Program-made: the position numbers and the translations under genes
Notes under the pieces: model-generated
The model's database searches: none
What the model was told of the DNA's origin: nothing
Seen by the model: the letters and a program-made list of their open reading frames with translations, nothing else
Part shown: positions 34,923 to 45,104 of the stretch, in pieces
How positions within the stretch are numbered: position 1 is the first letter of the stretch
Layout of the letters: each line of letters starts with the position of its first letter
Origin: Methylacidiphilum caldifontis
GTDB taxonomy: Bacteria; Verrucomicrobiota; Verrucomicrobiia; Methylacidiphilales; Methylacidiphilaceae
NCBI RefSeq assembly: GCF_017310505.1
Contig: NZ_CP065957.1
Coordinates: 1,798,001 to 1,862,000 of the forward strand
Direction of reading: 5' to 3'
DNA length: 64,000 bases

Positions 34923-35705
34923 ATGTGTGAACATTGTGGATGTAACGATAAGGAACATTCTGGAGCTCGTTTTTCTCATCATTTTCAACATGACCATCAA
35001 TTTTTAGATAAGAATCCAAAGGATACCAGCAATGGAGAAAAGAGGAAAATTAGCTTAGAAATGGACCTTTTAGAAAAAAATGCTTTTTTTGCAAAACAAA
35101 ATCGAGCTTTTTTTAAAAATAACAATCTTTTGGCCGTTAATATAATTTCTAGCCCAGGTTCTGGAAAGACTTCTTTGTTGACACGCACCTTGGAGAGCTT
35201 GCGGGAAAAGATTCCTTCTGTAGTCATTGAAGGGGATCAACAAACAGAACTCGATGCGGAAAAGATAAGACAAACAGGAACATTTGCTTTACAAATTCAA
35301 ACAGGCAAGGGCTGTCACTTGGATGCCCATTTAATTGCTCATGCTTTGGAACAGTTGCCTGTGATTCGGGGGGGGATTGTTTGGATAGAGAATGTCGGTA
35401 ATTTAATTTGTCCGGCCTTATTTGATTTAGGGGAAAGCAAAAGGGTTGTTCTGCTTTCTATAGCCGAAGGTGATGATAAACCTTTCAAATATCCCGAAGC
35501 TTTTTATGGAGCTGATCTTGTCATTCTAACCAAAATCGATCTGCTCCCCTACACAGAATTTTCTATTGAAAGATGCCAGGAGGGATTAAGACGAATAAGA
35601 CCTGGAATTGAAGTATTGGAACTGTCCTCTAAAACGGGTGAAGGCTTTGGACAATGGTTCAAGTGGATAAATAATGAATTGGATAAACTCAGAGAGAAAA
35701 AATAA
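34923..35705 (+). CDS. hypB: Hydrogenase nickel-incorporation GTPase HypB
   Basis: HypB delivers Ni to the [NiFe] hydrogenase large subunit in a GTP-dependent step, normally with HypA. The 260-residue protein opens with the high-affinity Ni motif CEHCGC (Cys2, Cys5, Cys7), followed by a His-rich linker (HHFQHDH) likely to store Ni or Zn. The GTPase domain has Walker A SSPGSGKTS (about 76-84), IEGDQQTELDA, WIENVGNLICP, and the NKxD equivalent TKIDLL. A good AGGAGAG ribosome-binding site precedes the ATG. It starts the run of hydrogenase genes. hypA is not adjacent. Confidence 0.97.
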   Translation: MCEHCGCNDKEHSGARFSHHFQHDHQFLDKNPKDTSNGEKRKISLEMDLLEKNAFFAKQNRAFFKNNNLLAVNIISSPGSGKTSLLTRTLESLREKIPSVVIEGDQQTELDAEKIRQTGTFALQIQTGKGCHLDAHLIAHALEQLPVIRGGIVWIENVGNLICPALFDLGESKRVVLLSIAEGDDKPFKYPEAFYGADLVILTKIDLLPYTEFSIERCQEGLRRIRPGIEVLELSSKTGEGFGQWFKWINNELDKLREKK

Positions 35706-35740: not shown

Positions 35741-36436
35741 GTGTTTAACTTGTTGATTGTCTCCTTTGTAAGTGGACTTTTAGTGGGCATAGGACATGCC
35801 TTGAGCGGTCCCGATCACTTAGCCGCTCTTGCTCCCCTTACATTAGAAAAAAAAAGTGGATTTTGGAAGGTGGGATTGTATTGGGGATTAGGTCACAGTG
35901 GTGGCATTTGGATATTAGGGATAATGCTGTTTTTTTTGAGAAAGTTTTTTCCTATTATTCTCCTTTCTAACTGGGCAGAAAGAACGGTGGGATTGGTACT
36001 GATTGGAATAGGAATATGGGGAATAAGAAGAAGTTTCAGGGATCACCTCCATGTTCATTATCATGCTCATGACGGCTTGGAGCACTGTCATATCCATTTT
36101 CACAAGGAAAGAGTCGTGTCCTCTAAGGAGCATCTTGTTGAAGACCATCATCATGTCCATGCTCCTTTAGGAATAGGACTTCTTCATGGAATAGCGGGAA
36201 GTGGTCATTTTTTTTCCGCTTTGCCTGTTCTTTCTTTTCCTCGTTCATCCATGGCTATTACTTACATACTAGGCTTTGGGCTTGGAGCCATTTTAGGCAT
36301 GGTTATTTTTGCTTTTCTTTTAGGAAAGATGATAAGGATAAAGGTTTTTTTTAACCGTGGAAAATGGTTAAGAAGGCTATTTGGCAGTTTAGCTATAGGT
36401 GTGGGACTGTTTTGGGTAATTGAAGGGGGAGTGTAA
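35741..36436 (+). CDS. Nickel/cobalt permease-like membrane protein (UreH/NicO type)
   Basis: This 231-residue membrane protein starts at GTG. The first helix contains GIGHALSGPDHLAALAPL, a variant of the HxnDH metal-binding signature of Ni/Co transporters of the UreH/NicO group. A central loop holds many His residues (HVHYHAHDGLEHCHIHFH and EDHHHVHAPLG), as in RcnA/UreH-like proteins. A second conserved helix GIGLLHGIAGSGHFFSALPVL follows. Location between hypB and hypF makes nickel supply for hydrogenase maturation the most likely role. Direction of transport is not provable here. Confidence 0.88.
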   Translation: MFNLLIVSFVSGLLVGIGHALSGPDHLAALAPLTLEKKSGFWKVGLYWGLGHSGGIWILGIMLFFLRKFFPIILLSNWAERTVGLVLIGIGIWGIRRSFRDHLHVHYHAHDGLEHCHIHFHKERVVSSKEHLVEDHHHVHAPLGIGLLHGIAGSGHFFSALPVLSFPRSSMAITYILGFGLGAILGMVIFAFLLGKMIRIKVFFNRGKWLRRLFGSLAIGVGLFWVIEGGV

Positions 36437-36493: not shown

Positions 36494-38845
36494 ATGGACA
36501 CAAAGGATCGATCTTTCAGTGCTTGGCATCTTCATTTAAGAGGCAAAGTCCAAGGAGTTGGTTTTCGTCCTTTTGTTTATCGTTTAGCCAAGGAAAAAAA
36601 ACTTGGTGGTTGGGTAAGTAATGATACCGATGGAGTGCATATTTATGTAGAAGGAGAGAAAGAGAAACTGCAAGATTTTTATCTCTTTGTCATAACCCAT
36701 TATCCTCCTATTGCTTTGGTTACAGAATCAAGTTATCAGGAAGTGCCTGTTCAAGGATATAAGGATTTTTTTATAAAAGAGAGTTTAAAAGAAGGAAGTA
36801 GTTCTGTTCTTCTTTTGCCTGATCTAGACGTTTGTGAACAATGCATTCAAGAGCTTCATTGTCCAACCGATCGAAGGTATGGTTATCCTTTTATTACCTG
36901 CACGCAATGTGGACCACGTTACTCGATTATCTTTGCTCTTCCCTATGATCGACAAAGAACGTCCATGGAACCATTTAAGATGTGTGAAGACTGTCAAAGG
37001 GAATATCAAAACCCTTTGGATAGAAGATTTTTTTCTCAAACCAATTCCTGTAAAAAATGTGGAATAGAGCTAAGCCTCAGCGACAATCTAAAAACGAACT
37101 TTTCTTATGGGGAACAAACAATTAATCAAGCAGCGGAGGCGATTTTAAAAGGAGAAATTGTTGCCGTAAAAGGAATTGGTGGATTTCTTCTGATAGCCGA
37201 TGCGGGAAATGAACAAACATTGAAAAGATTGAGAGAAAAAAAGAAAAGACCTCATAAACCCTTCGCCTTAATGTTTTTGGATATACAATCCGTTAAAAAA
37301 GAGGTCGAACTGAGTGACGAAGATCAGAAATTGTTGAATTCAAGATCAAAACCGATTGTTATTTTGGATCGAAAAAAGGGAAACCATAGCTTGGTTAGCC
37401 AATTAGTTGCTCCTGGACAGGATACATTAGGAGTTATGCTTGCCTATAGCCCTCTGCATATTCTTTTGTTAGAACATGTAGGGAAACCCGTTGTAGCCAC
37501 AAGTGCAAACATTTCAGGAAGTCCTATTCTTTCAATGGATCAAGAAATTTATACCCGGTTAGGGCACCTGGTAGATAAGGTTTTAAGCCACAATCGACAA
37601 ATTATTGTAGCTCAGGATGACTCCGTGGTTATTTCGTCTCCATTTTATAAACAACCGATATTTTTGCGCAGGAGTCGATCTTATGCCCCTTTTTATGCTC
37701 ATGAAAATTTGAGATTGGATAAGAAGATTTCCTTGTTAGCTCTGGGTGCTGATCAAAAAGGATGTTTTTCTCTATGTCATGAGGGAAACATTTATGTTTC
37801 TCAATATTTAGGAAGTTTACAAAATTTTGAATCCGAAGAAAATTATAAAAAGCAATTAAATTACTATTTTCTTCTTTTTAATCTAGATCTTAACTCTCTT
37901 GCCATAGATCTTCACCCAGCTTATCGATCTACTGAAATAGGATTATCTCTGGCGGCGGAAAGAAAAATAACTCCTTTTTATGTTCAACATCATAAGGCTC
38001 ATTTTTGGGCTGTGTTAGCAGAAAACGATCTGATTTATGATCTTGAACCTATACTTGGAGTAATTTGGGATGGGACGGGTTTTGGAGAAGATGGAGCAAT
38101 TTGGGGGGGAGAGTTTTTTCTTTATCAAAATGGAAAGATGAATCGGATAAAACATTTTAGCTATTATCCCCTTCTTTTGGGAGACAAAACCATCAAAGAG
38201 CCTAGGCTTTCTGCATTAGGTATTCTCTGGAAAGTCGGCAAAGAATCCCTTCTAAAAGAAAAGTTTTCTAGCTCAGAATGGCATACCTATCTAAAGCTGT
38301 TAAATCTGAAGCACTATTTTTTGTGTTCCAGTGTAGGAAGACTTTTTGATTGTGTTTGTTCAATGCTTGGGGGTTATGACCTTTCTACATTTGAAGGGCA
38401 GGCTGCGATGGAGGTTCAAAAGCTAGCCACAAGATATGCAAAGTCGTTTGGCTCTTTAGATTGTCTGCCATGGGAAAGATTTGCTTTCATAAAAAAATTA
38501 ATTAGAACTCAACCTCAGATTTCTTTAAATGATTTTTTTGTTTGGTTTACAGAAGCAGTCAATAATCATTGGCCCAAAGAGCAACTCGCTTTTGGATTCC
38601 ATTACTGGCTTTGTTGGATTATTATTCAAATTGCTTCTGCTTTTTGCGTCAAAAAGATAGCTGTTTCAGGGGGAGTTTTTCAAAATGCTCTTTTAGTAGA
38701 TCTACTCCGATTTTTTTGTACAAAAGACTTTGAACTTTATTTTCATCGGCAACTTTCTCCCAATGACGAAAACATCTCTTTAGGTCAACTCATTGCTTTA
38801 GCTCATGAGAAAAAATTTCTCCAAAGAAATTATAAAAATACATGA
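36494..38845 (+). CDS. hypF: Carbamoyltransferase HypF
   Basis: HypF makes the thiocarbamate precursor of the CN ligands of the [NiFe] site. The 783-residue protein has the full domain order: N-terminal acylphosphatase (about 10-95, with VQGVGFRPFVYRLA), two zinc-finger-like Cys clusters (CEQCIQELHC/CTQCG and CEDCQ/CKKCG, about 110-190), a YrdC-like domain (GIGGFLL, RPHKPFALMF, ATSANISG), and the Kae1-like carbamoyltransferase domain (HHKAHFWAV, GTGFGEDGAIWGGEF, GGVFQNALL). Every expected block is present. The gene starts 57 bp after the permease and is on the same strand. Confidence 0.97.
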   Translation: MDTKDRSFSAWHLHLRGKVQGVGFRPFVYRLAKEKKLGGWVSNDTDGVHIYVEGEKEKLQDFYLFVITHYPPIALVTESSYQEVPVQGYKDFFIKESLKEGSSSVLLLPDLDVCEQCIQELHCPTDRRYGYPFITCTQCGPRYSIIFALPYDRQRTSMEPFKMCEDCQREYQNPLDRRFFSQTNSCKKCGIELSLSDNLKTNFSYGEQTINQAAEAILKGEIVAVKGIGGFLLIADAGNEQTLKRLREKKKRPHKPFALMFLDIQSVKKEVELSDEDQKLLNSRSKPIVILDRKKGNHSLVSQLVAPGQDTLGVMLAYSPLHILLLEHVGKPVVATSANISGSPILSMDQEIYTRLGHLVDKVLSHNRQIIVAQDDSVVISSPFYKQPIFLRRSRSYAPFYAHENLRLDKKISLLALGADQKGCFSLCHEGNIYVSQYLGSLQNFESEENYKKQLNYYFLLFNLDLNSLAIDLHPAYRSTEIGLSLAAERKITPFYVQHHKAHFWAVLAENDLIYDLEPILGVIWDGTGFGEDGAIWGGEFFLYQNGKMNRIKHFSYYPLLLGDKTIKEPRLSALGILWKVGKESLLKEKFSSSEWHTYLKLLNLKHYFLCSSVGRLFDCVCSMLGGYDLSTFEGQAAMEVQKLATRYAKSFGSLDCLPWERFAFIKKLIRTQPQISLNDFFVWFTEAVNNHWPKEQLAFGFHYWLCWIIIQIASAFCVKKIAVSGGVFQNALLVDLLRFFCTKDFELYFHRQLSPNDENISLGQLIALAHEKKFLQRNYKNT

Positions 38846-38909: not shown

Positions 38910-39230
38910 ATGTGTCTTGCCATTCCAGGGAAGGTTATTGAAATCATTTCGACAAAAGACAGTTCACCATTTTTTCAGTTTGCAGTTGTTGAAATTTCCT
39001 CGGTAAGACGGAAAGTCAATATTGAACTTATTAAAGAGGAAGGAGTTTTACCCGGAGATTGGGTATTGGTTCATGTAGGGTTTGCTTTGGAAAAAATATC
39101 TTACCAAGAAGCTCAAGAACAGCTTCAAATGCTTTCTCTGCTTGGAGAAGAAAAGCAGTTCATTGAGGAGATCCAAGGTTATCGGTTAGGAAAAGAAAGA
39201 GAAGATGGACCGCAAGATAAAGAGCTTTAG
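38910..39230 (+). CDS. hypC: Hydrogenase maturation chaperone HypC/HybG
   Basis: HypC binds HypD, carries the Fe(CN)2CO unit and delivers it to the large subunit. The N-terminus is MCLAIPGKVIEI, with the essential Cys2. The rest (VEISSVRRKVNIELI, PGDWVLVHVGFALEKI) is typical of the OB-fold. The protein has 106 residues, about 25 longer than the usual 75-85; the extra is a charged C-terminal tail with no known role. It lies between hypF and hypD with short gaps. Confidence 0.96.
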   Translation: MCLAIPGKVIEIISTKDSSPFFQFAVVEISSVRRKVNIELIKEEGVLPGDWVLVHVGFALEKISYQEAQEQLQMLSLLGEEKQFIEEIQGYRLGKEREDGPQDKEL

Positions 39231-39262: not shown

Positions 39263-40381
39263 ATGCAATTTGTAGATGAATTCCGCAATAAAGAGCTAAT
39301 TCAAAAAACAGCTCAGGAAATCGCTCGTCGAGTAGACCCAAAGATTCAATATCGGATTATGGAAGTTTGTGGGGGGCATACCTTTTCGATTTACCGATTT
39401 GGGCTTCATGAACTTTTACCTCCAAATATTGAGCTTATTCATGGTCCTGGCTGTCCTGTTTGTGTTTTACCGATGGGTAGAATTGATGAGGGAATGTCCT
39501 TGGCTAACGATGACTCGGTGATTTTGACCGCTTTTGGAGACATGATGAGAGTGCCAGGCAAAAAGGGAAGCCCTTTAGAATTAAAAGCTAAAGGAAGGGA
39601 CATTCGAATGATCTACTCTCCATTGGATAATTTGAAATTAGCCATAGAAAACAGGGATAAGAAAATAGTTTTTTTTGCCATTGGTTTTGAAACCACTGCT
39701 CCCTCTACAGCATTAACCTTAATACAAGCGAAGAAGTTAGGAATAAAAAATTTTTTCGTATTTTCCAACCATGTCCTCATTGTCCCTGCTATTAGAGCGA
39801 TTCTCGATTCTCCAGACATGAGAATAGATGGTTTTATTGGACCTGGTCATGTTTCTACCGTTATTGGATGCCAGCCTTATGAATTTATTTCTAAAAATTA
39901 TCGTAAGCCCATAGTGATTTCGGGATTTGAACCTTTGGATCTTTTGGAGTCTATCCTTAAAATTGTTCAACAACTTCAAGAAGGAAGAAATGAAGTAGAA
40001 AATCAATACAACCGTGTCGTGAGATGGGAAGGGAACCGGACTGCTTTAAAAGTTATACAAGAAGTTTTTGAGTTGCGTCCTTATTTTGAGTGGAGAGGCT
40101 TAGGGTTTATATCGCAGTCGGCTTTGAAAATAAATAAAAGCTATGCCCAGTGGGATGCTGAAGAACATTTTCAGTTAAATAGAATTGTTCTGACTGATCC
40201 GAAATCTTCTCAATGTGGGGAAGTGCTCAAGGGGGTGTTAAAACCTTATCAGTGCAAACTTTTTGGCAAAGTTTGTAATCCTGAGCACCCTGTAGGAGCC
40301 CTAATGGTTTCTTCTGAAGGAGCATGTGCCGCTTATTATCAACATACTGGCCGGAAGGAAGGGATCACTGATAGCCTTTAG
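39263..40381 (+). CDS. hypD: Hydrogenase maturation protein HypD
   Basis: HypD is the iron-sulfur scaffold on which Fe(CN)2CO is assembled with HypC and HypE. Conserved Cys motifs are CGGHTFSIYRFGL (about 37-49) and GPGCPVCVLP (about 67-76). The 4Fe-4S-binding C-terminal cluster follows as SQCGEVLKG, CKLFGKVCNPEHPVG and SSEGACAAYY. GFETTAPSTA and GPGHVSTVIG complete the pattern. The product has 372 residues, the usual length. No defects are visible. Confidence 0.97.
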   Translation: MQFVDEFRNKELIQKTAQEIARRVDPKIQYRIMEVCGGHTFSIYRFGLHELLPPNIELIHGPGCPVCVLPMGRIDEGMSLANDDSVILTAFGDMMRVPGKKGSPLELKAKGRDIRMIYSPLDNLKLAIENRDKKIVFFAIGFETTAPSTALTLIQAKKLGIKNFFVFSNHVLIVPAIRAILDSPDMRIDGFIGPGHVSTVIGCQPYEFISKNYRKPIVISGFEPLDLLESILKIVQQLQEGRNEVENQYNRVVRWEGNRTALKVIQEVFELRPYFEWRGLGFISQSALKINKSYAQWDAEEHFQLNRIVLTDPKSSQCGEVLKGVLKPYQCKLFGKVCNPEHPVGALMVSSEGACAAYYQHTGRKEGITDSL

Positions 40382-40451: not shown

Positions 40452-41477
40452 ATGAATAGCGAGCAATTGGGACAACAGATTGAGCTGGCGCATGGATCTG
40501 GGGGAAAATCAACGTATCGGTTAATCAGATCGGCTATTTTACCCGCCTTGAAGAATCCGATTTTGGAAAGTCTTTCTGATGCTGCCGTCGTCGATTATGG
40601 AGCAGGACGAATCGCTCTGACCACGGATAGTTTTGTTGTTCATCCATTAATGTTTTCTGGTGGGTCGATTGGCAAGCTGGCTATTAATGGCACGGTAAAT
40701 GACTTGGCTGTATCGGGAGCCCAACCTCGGGCTATCCTTCTAAGCCTCATTGTTGAAGCAGGTCTTCCCATGGATGTGTTTTTAAGGGAAATTCAGGCTA
40801 TCGCTGAGGCTTCAAGAATAGCTACTGTGCCCGTCATTGGTGGAGATACGAAAGTTGTTGAGCATGGTAAAGGCGATGGTTTATACATAACCACAACAGG
40901 GCTTGGGATTGTTGATCCCAAGGTTAATCTATCCCCACAGAGGATAAAGCCTGGTGATCAAGTCATTGTCTCTGGTCCAATTGGTGATCATGGAATTGCG
41001 ATTCTACTCGCTAGAGGAGAAATTGAATTGGAAGCTAATTTAGGGTCTGACAGCCGACCCTTATGGCCACTGATTAAAGCAATGATTTCGGTTCATCCCG
41101 CTGCGGTCAAATGGATGAGGGATCCCACTCGGGGAGGGGTAGCCACGGCTCTCAACGAACTTTCCAGGGAGATAAAAATGGGAGTTGTCCTCTTTGAGGA
41201 GATGATCCCTTTGAGAGAAGAGGTTAGAGGAGCCTGTGAAATCCTTGGACTTGATCCTCTGCATATTGCTTGTGAAGGGCAGTTTGTAGCAATAGTTGAA
41301 AAAGATTTGCTTTTAGAGATATTAAAAGAACTTAGAAAAGTTCCTGGAGGAGAAGAGGCTACCCACATAGGTGAAATAAGGGAACAACCTGCTGGAGTAG
41401 TCTTGGCTGTGTCTTCTTATGGAGGCAGTCGGCGTGTTGACATGCTTATAGGAGATCCCCTTCCAAGAATATGTTAA
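40452..41477 (+). CDS. hypE: Hydrogenase maturation protein HypE
   Basis: HypE dehydrates the thiocarboxamide on its own C-terminal Cys to thiocyanate, the source of the CN ligand. It belongs to the PurM/AIR synthase fold. The N-terminal AHGSGGKST, the central GGSIGKLAINGTVNDLAVSGA with the metal-binding NDLA, and VIGGDTKVVEHG are all present. The protein ends PRIC, with the required C-terminal Cys. Length is 341 residues. The ATG of the next gene lies inside its final codons (ATGTTAA), so the two are translationally coupled. Confidence 0.97.
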   Translation: MNSEQLGQQIELAHGSGGKSTYRLIRSAILPALKNPILESLSDAAVVDYGAGRIALTTDSFVVHPLMFSGGSIGKLAINGTVNDLAVSGAQPRAILLSLIVEAGLPMDVFLREIQAIAEASRIATVPVIGGDTKVVEHGKGDGLYITTTGLGIVDPKVNLSPQRIKPGDQVIVSGPIGDHGIAILLARGEIELEANLGSDSRPLWPLIKAMISVHPAAVKWMRDPTRGGVATALNELSREIKMGVVLFEEMIPLREEVRGACEILGLDPLHIACEGQFVAIVEKDLLLEILKELRKVPGGEEATHIGEIREQPAGVVLAVSSYGGSRRVDMLIGDPLPRIC

Positions 41478-42871
41478 AGATCCAAATGAACAAGGAGCTT
41501 TTATGGATCAACAAAAGCATTGAACAGAGAAATCAACTCTGCAGGGATTTTTTCCAGCAAGAAGCTTTTCGGCTGGCTCAGATGAGTCAAAAGATCGCTG
41601 AGCGGTTTTTGGATGGAGCAAAAATATTAGCTTTTGGCAAAGGACAGGCTGTTACAGATGCCCAACATATCGCTGTGGAATTTGTACATCCGGTCATTGT
41701 AGGTAAAAGAGCTCTTCCCGCTTTGGATATTTCAGTGGATTTTACCCATTGGCTAAAAGTTTTGTGTTCTTCAAAGGATATTGTATTTGGATTCTCTCCC
41801 CTGGAAGAAGATTCAGCAGTAAAAGAAGCCTTGCAATGGGCTTATTCAAGGGGAGCAATGACATTTTCTTTGCCAGGTAAAGATGGCAGCTATGCTCTTT
41901 GTTCACCGACTACAGATCCTTGGGTATTTCAAGAAATAGTCGAAATGCTTTATCACATGCTCTGGGAAACTGTACATCTTTTTTTTGAACATCGTGAGCT
42001 GGGCCTTGATCTTGAGCAGGCTTCGTTTCTTTATCCTTTTCTTGGACAAGAAAAACAGAAAACTGATCAACTCCTTGAACAGGTTGCTCAATCCATTATG
42101 GCTAAGGCAAAGGAAGTTGAGGTTTTAAGAAAAAAAATTGCTGATGAAGAATCAGAAAAAATTATCCAGGCCATTATTGAGGTTAAAGAAAGGCTAAAAA
42201 AAGGTGGGAAACTTATCCTTATAGGCAATGGGGGTTCAGCAACAGATGCTAACGATTTTCTTTTGGATTTGATTAATCCGCCTATTCCCAATGCTAATCC
42301 CATTCCAGCCATTTCATTGGCCATGGAATCAGCGGTTCTTTCAGCTTTAGCTAATGACATTGGGGTCGAAGTCCTCTTTTCTCGACAACTCCATGCCCAT
42401 GCGAAACCGGATGATGTCGCTATTGTCCTATCCACGAGTGGAGGTTCCAAAAATGTGATCCATGCTCTTGAGGAAGCAAACAAAAGGGAACTATTGACCG
42501 TAGCTTTACTCGGTAATGAAGGCGGAGAAGTTGTCCGAAGACAGTTAGCCCATATTCCCATTGTTGTTCGTTCTGATTATATTCCTCGAATACAGGAAGT
42601 GCAGGCTACGATCTATCACCAGCTTTGCGAAGCTCTTGTTGATTCAGAGCCTATTTTGGAACTATTCGGGTCAAAAAGTTGTCCATTTACAGCAGAGTTG
42701 AGGGAAGAGCTGATTGGACAAAAAAAGAAATTCATCGAATATGATTGTGAGACCGACCTCGAAGCTTTACAAAAGCTTTTTGAAATCACCCAATCAAGAA
42801 GCGTGCCTGTTCTGGTAGAAAACAACAGGGTTATTTCTCTTGGATGGCAGGGAAGAAGTTGCATGATCTGA
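41471..42871 (+). CDS. Fusion of two SIS domains with a UXX-star/glutaredoxin-like domain
   Basis: The 466-residue protein has three parts. Residues about 30-190 are a degenerate SIS domain related to phosphoheptose isomerases (ILAFGKGQAVTDAQHIAVEF). Residues about 205-390 are a second, better-conserved SIS domain (LILIGNGGSATDANDFLLDL, LSTSGGSKNVIHALEEA, VQATIYHQLCEALV), GmhA-like. Residues 396-466 are a thioredoxin-fold domain of the UXX-star group: FGSKSCPFTAELREEL with CPFT (Cys404 at the seleno/Cys position), SRSVPVLVE, and the terminal GWQGRSCMI with Cys464. The gene overlaps hypE by 7 nt, so it is made with the hydrogenase maturation proteins. The enzymatic role is unknown; heptose isomerase activity is doubtful. 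The likely job is an accessory function of hydrogenase maturation or redox control (inference). Confidence 0.85.
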   Translation: MLKIQMNKELLWINKSIEQRNQLCRDFFQQEAFRLAQMSQKIAERFLDGAKILAFGKGQAVTDAQHIAVEFVHPVIVGKRALPALDISVDFTHWLKVLCSSKDIVFGFSPLEEDSAVKEALQWAYSRGAMTFSLPGKDGSYALCSPTTDPWVFQEIVEMLYHMLWETVHLFFEHRELGLDLEQASFLYPFLGQEKQKTDQLLEQVAQSIMAKAKEVEVLRKKIADEESEKIIQAIIEVKERLKKGGKLILIGNGGSATDANDFLLDLINPPIPNANPIPAISLAMESAVLSALANDIGVEVLFSRQLHAHAKPDDVAIVLSTSGGSKNVIHALEEANKRELLTVALLGNEGGEVVRRQLAHIPIVVRSDYIPRIQEVQATIYHQLCEALVDSEPILELFGSKSCPFTAELREELIGQKKKFIEYDCETDLEALQKLFEITQSRSVPVLVENNRVISLGWQGRSCMI

Positions 42872-43162: not shown

Positions 43163-43792
43163 ATGGAAAGATTGGTAAGCATTGGTGAAGCCGCCTCGGT
43201 GTTGGGCGTATCGATTACGACGCTGCGCCGCTGGGAGGCGACGGGCAGACTGGACACCGAACACACGGTGAGGCGGCCATCGCTGCTATGACCTGGCCAA
43301 GATCAAGCCTGAATTATTCTGTGCCAAGGCGGACGCTAGCGCCGGACTGTGGCCTATTCACGCCTGTCCAGCCACGGTTAGAAAGATGACCTGGAGCGGC
43401 GAAAACAAGTGCTAGAACTTTATTGTGACCGTCAGGGATGGACTTTTGAGGTCATTGCCAACCTGTGTTGGGCCATGAACTACCTCAAGAAGGGATTGAA
43501 GCGGCTGCTCAATGCCATCCTTGCAAGCCATGTTGACCGACTCGTCATCACGCATGAAGATCGGCTACTGTGCTTCGGCGCGGAACTGGTCTTTGCCATT
43601 TGCGAGGCAAAGAGTGTTGAAATGGCCATTTTCAACTAGGGCGAGAAGACGATTTTCGAGGAAGACTTAGCCAAGGACGTACTGGAGATCATCACAGTGT
43701 TCAGTGCTCGGCTCTGCGGCAACGTTCCTGCAAGAACTTGAAGCTGCTCGATGGCGTGAAGAAAGCGGTTGAGGAGACGCAGGCATGCTGAT
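43163..43792 (+). pseudogene. Broken tnpA serine recombinase of an IS607-type element
   Basis: The start reads MERLVSIGEAASVLGVSITTLRRWEATGRL, a MerR-like DNA-binding head, here split across several short lines of good match. A frameshift near 43270-43285 follows, after which HRCYDLAK resumes. In a further frame TVAYSRLSSHG contains the catalytic Ser of the recombinase, followed by a TAG (43379-43381) where Gln is expected, and then KDDLERRKQVLELYC. A further stop (TAG after AIFN at 43637-43639) interrupts before the FEEDLAKDVLEIITVFSARL block. A frameshift leads to the C-terminal KKAVEETQAC and TGA at 43790-43792. There are at least two frameshifts and three stops, so it cannot be functional. 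GC is well above that of its surroundings. Confidence 0.88.
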
Positions 43793-44618
43793 GACTTACA
43801 TAATCGCCCTTGATCCCAACAACACGCAGGCAACCTACTTTGCCCGTGCCGCTGGCACTGCGCCGACAGCTTGGGTGCCATCAAGCGCGAGCTTTTCTCT
43901 TGTATGCAGAACGTCAGCAAATGCGCCCTGCAGATGGCGATCATTTAGCTAGTCGAAGCGTTCATGAACTTTTGGATCGGGTGGGCGAAAATCCCTAAGC
44001 CTAGGGGAAAAGGCCGCGCGGAAAACAAAGGCACGGTTGGGATGGATTTGGGCGTTGCGGCCCAGGCGACGCTCTTGACGGGAGAGACCCTCCTCGGCCC
44101 AAAGGACGAACACGGCCTTGCTCAAGCGTCTGCTCAGGCTCTTGTGCCGTCTTTCGCGCAACTGGGCGAAGGCGTGTATAAAGCAGACATAGCTTTACGC
44201 TCGCATCGCCAAACATCTGACAGGAGGCCCTGCACAAGCTTATATCCAGCCTCAGCCGGCGATTCCACACCATCGCCATCGAGGTGCTGAATGCGCGTGG
44301 GAGGGGCAGAAACCGCCCTCTGGCTCGATCTATTGCCAACATGGGCTTTTTCGAGTTCCGGCGACAGTTGGAATACAAGCCCGAACGGCACGGCGGCTTG
44401 GTGCTTGTGGCGGATCGGTTCTTCGCCAGTAGCTAAGAGGTGCTCCGCGTGCGGGTAGGCGATCGATGTGCTGCCGTTATCGACGCGGAAAGGGGCATGA
44501 CCGGCTCGTGACACACGCCGGAGGTCAAGCCTGTAGAGAGAAAGGCTCTGGATTCAGTCACAAGGCCGAAGTAAAACCGGTCTCGATAAAGAAGGAAGTT
44601 AGCTCTGTTGCTGTTTGA
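43785..44618 (+). pseudogene. Broken tnpB (RNA-guided nuclease) of the same IS607-type element
   Basis: The start ATG overlaps the tnpA stop, the normal IS607 arrangement. MLMTYIIALDPNNTQATYF is the family N-terminus. Then the frame is lost and the middle is largely deleted. The fragments QNVSKCALQMAII, MNFWIGWAKIPK, and GTVGMDLGVAAQATLLTGE (RuvC I with its catalytic Asp) survive in shifted frames, followed by ALHKLI, RFHTIAIEVLN, RSIANMGFFEFRRQLEYK and LVLVADRFFASS. Stops interrupt the last stretch. The zinc ribbon and final RuvC Asp are not intact. Remaining length is about half of a normal tnpB. The gene ends at TGA 44616-44618. Confidence 0.88.
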
Positions 44619-45104
44619 GCTGGAATGAGTAAGTCTGATGAAACAGTTTTCTTTTTGGATATAGGTCGTTATATAAAAGTTAGACAAATATGTATGCGAC
44701 CTTTATGGCTAGGGAGTTTTTTTATTGTTTCAGCTAAGAATTTCAACAAAGACTGTCAAAGAATGAGCTATAGAAAGTGTTGATAAGTTCATCCGAGCTA
44801 TAGGCAAAAGATTACTTTAGGAACATTACCCTGAATTTTACCAATAATGAGAAGATTAGGGTGGGAAGATAGAAAAGCTTAAATTAAGACAAAAGATAAG
44901 AATGAGTTCTTTGAGCATTATTATGCCTATGTTTACTGAGAGTATTGATGGGATTTAGAAAAGAATGAATAATTTTTTAAAATCAAGCAATGCAAGATGG
45001 AAAAGATCAAAATTGGATTTTTCCAGCAAAGGATATTACAGATTTCTACCGAGAAATTAAAAATAGTATTGACATAGATAAGAAAAAAATCCAATGAAAG
45101 AGGA
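44619..45104. other. Gene-free stretch after the IS607 remnant
   Basis: There is no convincing ORF, RNA or repeat in this AT-rich stretch. A TATGGCTAGGGAGT near 44705 is weakly like an eroded version of the GGCGGGAGTAG right-end motif seen at 43060 and might mark the old right end of the element. A TTGACA at 45069-45074 could be a -35 for the following small gene, but no good -10 is visible. Confidence 0.4.

Follow-up and report, generated by a model that had tools for sequence, protein, structure and literature searches.

A fused SIS-SIS-UXX-star gene of Methylacidiphilum caldifontis and its two-gene counterparts as candidate accessories of [NiFe]-hydrogenase maturation

HypC partners HypD in the scaffold where the Fe(CN)2CO group of [NiFe] hydrogenases is made, and a review names both the CO source in the absence of HypX and the electron donor to HypD as unknown (PMC12134894). 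In GmhA, zinc is held by two His and one Glu from one subunit and a Gln from its neighbour (PMC5387315), and in a GmhA model the sugar-phosphate contacts and the Gln lie on one chain, with the Glu coming from another (PMC7705670). In the literature searched, a SIS gene near hydrogenases is mentioned solely in one line of a table of hydrogenase neighbours (PMC12727194), UXX-star is described just as a (seleno)protein family whose role is unknown (PMC13188914), and we found no functional study of SIS-SIS or UXX-star in hydrogenase maturation. The window analysed here, a stretch of 64,000 nucleotides of Methylacidiphilum caldifontis (NZ_CP065957.1, positions 1,798,001 to 1,862,000), holds a gene in which two SIS domains and a UXX-star-like domain are joined. 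We consider it rather likely that this gene is the fused version of two conserved hyp accessory genes and encodes a [NiFe]-hydrogenase maturation enzyme of this build, a judgement that does not extend to the supply of the CO ligand.

The fused gene and the hyp operons of its relatives

The fusion ORF comes after hypB, hypF, hypC, hypD and hypE, all on one strand, and its ATG lies, as the earlier note had described, within the final codons of hypE, which ends at 41477, giving an overlap of 7 nt:

34923..35705, + strand: hypB, operon neighbour
36494..38845, + strand: hypF, operon neighbour
38910..39230, + strand: hypC, operon neighbour
39263..40381, + strand: hypD, operon neighbour
40452..41477, + strand: hypE (TIGR02124, 397.6 bits), overlapping the SIS start
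41471..42871, + strand: SIS-SIS-UXX-star fusion ORF, 466 aa, ATG start (Pfam and NCBIfam)
41504..42028, + strand: SIS1 domain, residues 12-186; DAQHxxVEF metal ligands kept, without the GNGGS/STSGxS phosphate pocket
42056..42646, + strand: SIS2 domain, residues 196-392, GmhA-like; GNGGSATDA and STSGGS kept, His/Glu metal ligands replaced by Asp/Asp
42659..42868, + strand: UXX-star-like glutaredoxin-fold domain, residues 397-466 (CPFT ... GRSC)

The interval between hypB and hypF (35741-36436) holds a His-rich membrane protein that looks like a nickel transporter by eye and that matched no Pfam family at E 0.01. Further on, behind the fusion gene (43636-44690), both strands carry ORFs that overlap one another and may be what is left of a mobile element; the one tested had no Pfam match. 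The sole full-length hydrogenase large subunit found in this genome (G000:C1:68025-69614) belongs to neither the 1h nor the 2a type and is encoded well away from the hyp operon; because it is the only one found, the hyp set of the window probably matures that hydrogenase alone.

Domain searches confirm that the ORF is SIS-SIS followed by a UXX-star-like tail, as first described. It scores 89.2 bits on SIS_2 (PF13580, Pfam cut-off 27), SIS1 taken alone giving 23.9 bits, under that cut-off (E 5e-5), and the 165.9 bits of the ORF on GmhA (TIGR00441, NCBIfam) fall under the curated cut-off of 209.45. The C-terminal thioredoxin-fold domain that the earlier note had proposed is borne out by Glutaredoxin scores (PF00462) of 30.4 bits, or 32.8 for the tail alone, against a cut-off of 22.9, and by structure prediction, in which the tail folded alone takes a thioredoxin/glutaredoxin fold (pLDDT 95.9) with glutaredoxins as the closest PDB entries. 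The full-length fold has pLDDT >95 across most of SIS1 and SIS2, with GmhA as the closest PDB entries, and low confidence for the UXX-star tail. On UXX-star (NF041212, NCBIfam) the whole ORF reaches 47.9 and the tail alone 52.0 bits, both under the cut-off of 66; standalone orthologues from hyp operons score 75 and 77.8 (Thermus and Pyrinomonas, which pass) and 64.3, and a UXX-star of Rubrobacter type passes with 101.1. Against a profile made from hyp-operon UXX-star proteins only, the tail scores 100 bits, which, together with its CxxT and C-terminal Cys, marks it as an orthologue of these proteins. Neither of the HypX-type domain families, formyltransferase and enoyl-CoA hydratase, appeared in the Pfam scan of the ORF.

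A single full fusion protein gave no match as a query in the collection; a SIS1 alignment did, and the scan of GTDB genomes with it found at least 335 relatives, the best 80 of which were taken for the locus counts. A joint alignment of SIS-SIS and UXX-star misplaced the UXX-star rows and was left out. Hyp genes lie in the retrieved flank of 79 of the 80 loci (best 80 of at least 335), the remaining one having UXX-star only, and UXX-star lies directly 3' of SIS-SIS in 66 of the same 80, the typical gene order being hypC-hypD-hypE-[SIS-SIS]-[UXX-star]-hypF. Among SIS1 loci of Actinobacteriota, 28 of 30 have adjacent hyp genes and one further has UXX-star. Control loci with ordinary SIS/GmhA genes had a hyp gene within 1.5 kb in none of 43 cases, so that the linkage is conserved well above controls, and the connection with hydrogenase maturation survives the neighbourhood survey that the earlier note had proposed.

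Thermus thermophilus SG0.5JP17-16 has the order hypC-hypC-hypD-hypE-SIS/SIS-UXX-star-hypF, with overlapping SIS/SIS and UXX-star genes, and Sulfobacillus acidophilus the same gene order. On a plasmid of S. acidophilus DSM 10332 (L041:9914-11371), SIS-SIS is frameshifted in SIS2 and unannotated, the downstream UXX-star alone being annotated; near the hyp operon of a Thermus plasmid (L040:15967-17841), hypE and hypD fragments on the opposite strand are apparently the remains of a second hyp set.

The module was found in hyp operons of Acidobacteriota, Actinobacteriota, Gemmatimonadota, Chloroflexota, Thermus, Methylacidiphilum and others, where it often accompanies group 1h and 2a enzymes, types associated with atmospheric H2 oxidation. 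Judged from gene order and homology, SIS-SIS with UXX-star appears to be an accessory of [NiFe]-hydrogenase maturation that is widespread and uncharacterised, mostly in aerobic lineages. SIS1 is present in 53 of 396 Actinobacteriota genomes, and among 388 of Verrucomicrobiota in Methylacidiphilum only (~360 bits, against at most 50 elsewhere), which suggests horizontal gain. In the tree, the SIS2 of the window clusters with Thermus and Bacillota with modest support; SIS1 sequences group together, as do SIS2 sequences, both separately from GmhA. The GmhA-type fold might suggest that the ORF encodes an ordinary heptose isomerase that sits in the operon by chance. This is highly improbable given a hyp linkage conserved across many phyla, the distinctness of both groups from GmhA, a score under the gmhA cut-off, and the fact that this genome has another gene that is GmhA-like (G000:C1:1971051).

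Fusion of all three parts is exceptional; two separate overlapping genes are the norm. None of the 80 relatives (best 80 of at least 335, GTDB genomes) has SIS-SIS fused to UXX-star; the conserved arrangement is of two overlapping genes, SIS-SIS and then UXX-star, between hypE and hypF, and the stop of the first overlaps the start of the second by 8-14 nt in 64 of 67 loci. The fusion reported by the earlier note is thus real in the window's ORF but is not a conserved unit. Comparison of junctions shows that a net 1-nt indel turns the overlap into a fusion or back, and since so small a shift suffices, a fusion would be easy to evolve and equally easy to obtain by sequencing error. The other four Methylacidiphilum genomes searched carry the SIS-SIS gene behind hypE without the UXX-star tail, and UXX-star is missing from these genomes, which indicates that it is not indispensable there.

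In G002, a possible remnant of UXX-star following the SIS gene, read through three stops, was rejected: it scored 1.8 bits, whereas shuffled DNA reached up to 6.6. In G003, a decayed second SIS2 end with UXX-star and many stops (G003:C1:965608-965996) lies just upstream of group 1h hydrogenase genes, ~15 kb from an intact SIS-SIS copy at the hyp operon.

Predicted composite sites of the SIS pair

By alignment and published GmhA geometry, we mapped two composite sites, A and B, onto the SIS pair. Their eight residues, together with the tested serines of the SIS2 pocket, are invariant in 82 of 82 tandem SIS-SIS proteins:

41666..41668, + strand: H66, SIS1, metal ligand of site A; GmhA H64 by alignment
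41678..41680, + strand: E70, SIS1, metal ligand of site A; GmhA E68
41954..41956, + strand: H162, SIS1, metal ligand of site A; GmhA H183
42593..42595, + strand: Q375, SIS2, predicted ligand of site A in trans; present in every split homologue
42227..42238, + strand: NGGS (253-256), SIS2 sugar-phosphate pocket, by alignment
42431..42448, + strand: STSGGS (321-326), SIS2 phosphate-binding loop, by alignment
42254..42268, + strand: D262 and D266, SIS2, ligands of site B in place of GmhA His/Glu
42617..42619, + strand: H383, SIS2, ligand of site B
41930..41932, + strand: Q154, SIS1, predicted trans ligand of site B; lost with site B in split homologues

Site A would be a complete composite site, in which H66, E70 and H162 of SIS1 meet Q375 and the phosphate pocket of SIS2, and site B a metal-only site with changed ligands, made of D262, D266 and H383 of SIS2 and Q154 of SIS1. 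The earlier note had called SIS2 GmhA-like, as we do, and SIS1 degenerate, which needs correction: SIS1 appears to be complementary to SIS2, since it retains metal ligands of the GmhA type and only its phosphate pocket is gone.

The manner in which these residues disappear bears on whether the sites are shared. Split actinobacterial systems, in which the two domains are on separate polypeptides, kept all of H66, E70, H162 and Q375 in eight of eight cases and lost D262, D266 and Q154 in all eight and H383 in seven. Homologue L231 is the reverse: it retains site B, and the ligands that SIS1 gives to site A are gone. The best evidence for sites shared by SIS1 and SIS2 is that residues go missing in the sets that GmhA geometry predicts, sets that span two polypeptides; the eight split systems are related to each other, so their losses of site B are not independent events.

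Many actinobacteria (Mycobacterium and relatives) encode SIS1 in fusion with a HypC-family domain (PF01455, 44.9 bits, cut-off 28.5), with SIS2 as a gene of its own behind it; in one genome SIS1-HypC-SIS2 is a single ORF. As HypC is the partner of HypD, this fusion places the SIS pair at the step in which the Fe(CN)2CO scaffold is active. Actinobacteriota loci with SIS1-HypC or SIS1-HypC-SIS2 include L042:7962-8672, L221-L228 and L231, and the Mycobacterium plasmid record annotates the HypC/HybG/HupF family only; a further locus of this phylum (L247:1035-3518), with separate SIS1-like, HypC-like and SIS2 genes before hypD, looks intermediate between a single SIS and a tandem fusion.

The fusion to HypC would also suit a non-catalytic SIS-SIS, acting as a DiaA-like scaffold that holds HypC, HypD and HypE or as a sensor that gates maturation by the level of sugar phosphate, and the structural neighbours include DiaA, a GmhA relative of known structure whose catalytic residues are altered. 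We hold this to be unlikely, because a mere scaffold needs none of the metal and catalytic positions that are invariant in all 82 proteins and are lost site by site. Site B invites another reading, in which its Asp, Asp, His and Gln carry Fe(II) to HypCD and UXX-star keeps the thiols reduced, since this ligand set is harder than that of the GmhA zinc and comes without a phosphate pocket. We regard such iron donation as quite unlikely: split actinobacterial systems have lost site B, yet their SIS genes remain in the hyp operon, and a published report (Sci Rep 2024, PMC10847431) gives evidence for Isc as the iron supplier in E. coli. Under the catalytic reading that we prefer, SIS1 and SIS2 would pack like two neighbouring GmhA subunits, creating one complete metal/phosphosugar site and one metal-only site; such packing with shared sites would point to a GmhA-derived enzyme that may act on a phosphorylated sugar or triose.

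The thiol domain and the proposed maturation step

HypD resembles ferredoxin:thioredoxin reductase, its thiol chain adjoining a [4Fe-4S] cluster, and this likeness makes a thioredoxin-fold partner plausible. Two Cys of the tail are invariant in 35 of 35 aligned UXX-star proteins of hyp type:

42680..42682, + strand: C404 (CPFT), UXX-star active-site Cys
42860..42862, + strand: C464, C-terminal Cys

The selenium angle of the earlier note is not borne out, since the CxxT position has TGT at 42680 and no in-frame TGA, which speaks against the tail as a selenoprotein, and Cys was present in every hyp-type UXX-star seen. We suggest that UXX-star is the thiol partner of SIS-SIS, most plausibly cycling with HypD; in the species of the window, where the proteins are joined, the thiol domain would be tethered to the enzyme.

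Where UXX-star does not adjoin SIS-SIS, it is encoded elsewhere in six of six checked genomes, and in all four flanks read, Rubrobacter-type genomes included, it lies beside group 1h structural genes. A search for UXX-star without SIS in Bacillota gave 3 matches in 398 genomes, all beside SIS-SIS; Parageobacillus was not among them. The Parageobacillus Huc operon has a gene for a GST N-terminal domain between hypE and hypF, with no SIS gene listed, whose transcript rises ~80-fold at near-zero growth together with hypCDE (PMC12976888), and this gene is probably a UXX-star of the present type. These cases, a UXX-like gene expressed with hypCDE and without a SIS gene, and a UXX-star beside the 1h structural genes of Rubrobacter-type genomes, would suit UXX-star as the core function, donating electrons to the HypD thiols, with SIS-SIS catalysing an unrelated sugar-phosphate reaction from the same operon. 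That arrangement seems distinctly improbable to us, because UXX-star has been lost from four of the five Methylacidiphilum genomes, which still carry SIS-SIS, and the hyp clusters of C. necator and Methylocystis have a SIS gene and no annotated UXX-star.

In the maturation role that we favour, the module would act during assembly of the Fe(CN)2CO group by HypC, HypD and HypE, and carry out a metal-dependent phosphosugar step there, perhaps one that supplies the CO ligand. It is tempting to go further and speculate that SIS-SIS with UXX-star might be a HypX-independent, oxygen-compatible source of this ligand, in which a sugar or triose phosphate, as its metal-bound enediolate, would give rise to a one-carbon unit or CO beside HypC/HypD; we offer this as a tentative possibility, well short of an even chance. 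HypX was found in none of the 34 tandem-SIS genomes tested and none of the five Methylacidiphilum genomes, the window's own included, with a query that as a positive control matched 49 plasmid records. In C. necator, HypX and a single SIS lie in separate hyp clusters ~54 kb apart, and this, with the absence of HypX, fits alternative maturation sets. HypX is rare in general, however, so that its absence from SIS-SIS genomes is weak evidence. The hyp operon of the sister genus g3 is built differently, and this genus has no SIS-SIS, adjacent UXX-star or HypX; as it matures its hydrogenase all the same, SIS-SIS is not the sole HypX-free route in air. For both reasons we hold the CO-supply reading at modest odds.

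The unknown [NiFe]-hydrogenase maturation step that the earlier note had in mind is thus partly supported on comparative grounds: the hyp linkage and the thioredoxin-fold tail argue for it, and its view of the fusion as a unit, of SIS1 and of selenium had to be corrected. The module is a concrete candidate, with named residues, for the HypX-free CO source or the electron donor to HypD. If the CO-supply reading were true, many aerobic H2 oxidisers, atmospheric H2 oxidisers included, would have their own CO-ligand pathway.

Comparison with known systems

SIS-SIS resembles GmhA (D-sedoheptulose-7-phosphate isomerase, TIGR00441; PDB 2x3y, 2xbl, 5i01, 1x92) in fold, SIS_2 profile, phosphate loop and the zinc-ligand pattern of H/E/H with a Gln in trans. 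It differs in its place in hyp operons and in being a tandem of two halves that have diverged, one of its sites being complete and the other metal-only. The set that defines GmhA, H, E, H, Q and the pocket in one chain of a homo-oligomer, is found in neither half: SIS1 has H66, E70, H162 and Q154 without the pocket, and SIS2 has the pocket, Q375 and H383 but D262 and D266. DiaA is likewise a GmhA-type SIS protein with altered site residues; unlike in DiaA, the ligand residues of SIS-SIS are invariant, two domains are fused and the context is that of hyp genes.

With the UXX-star family (NF041212; families 1-3; HUGP/GUXX-star fusion) the tail shares a Cys-x-x-Thr start, a length of ~70 aa, a second conserved Cys at the end and a relationship by score, whereas it has Cys rather than Sec, is hyp-linked and fused to SIS-SIS, and scores under the family cut-off. 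HypX, a formyl-THF/formyl-CoA decarbonylase, is similarly an accessory hyp gene of aerobic H2 oxidisers, but SIS-SIS is unrelated to it in fold and sequence, and none of the SIS-SIS genomes tested yielded a HypX.

At L043:243-1298 (NC_005241 59962-61017), a gene before the 1h large subunit is annotated as HypE; homologues there match the hydrogenase small subunit, and it is probably a misannotated small subunit. The single SIS protein of group 1h hyp clusters (C. necator pHG1, WP_011153996) has a related domain and the same place in the hyp cluster as SIS-SIS, but it has one domain with a complete motif set, presumably forming a homo-oligomer, and its gene adjoins hypD instead of standing behind hypE.
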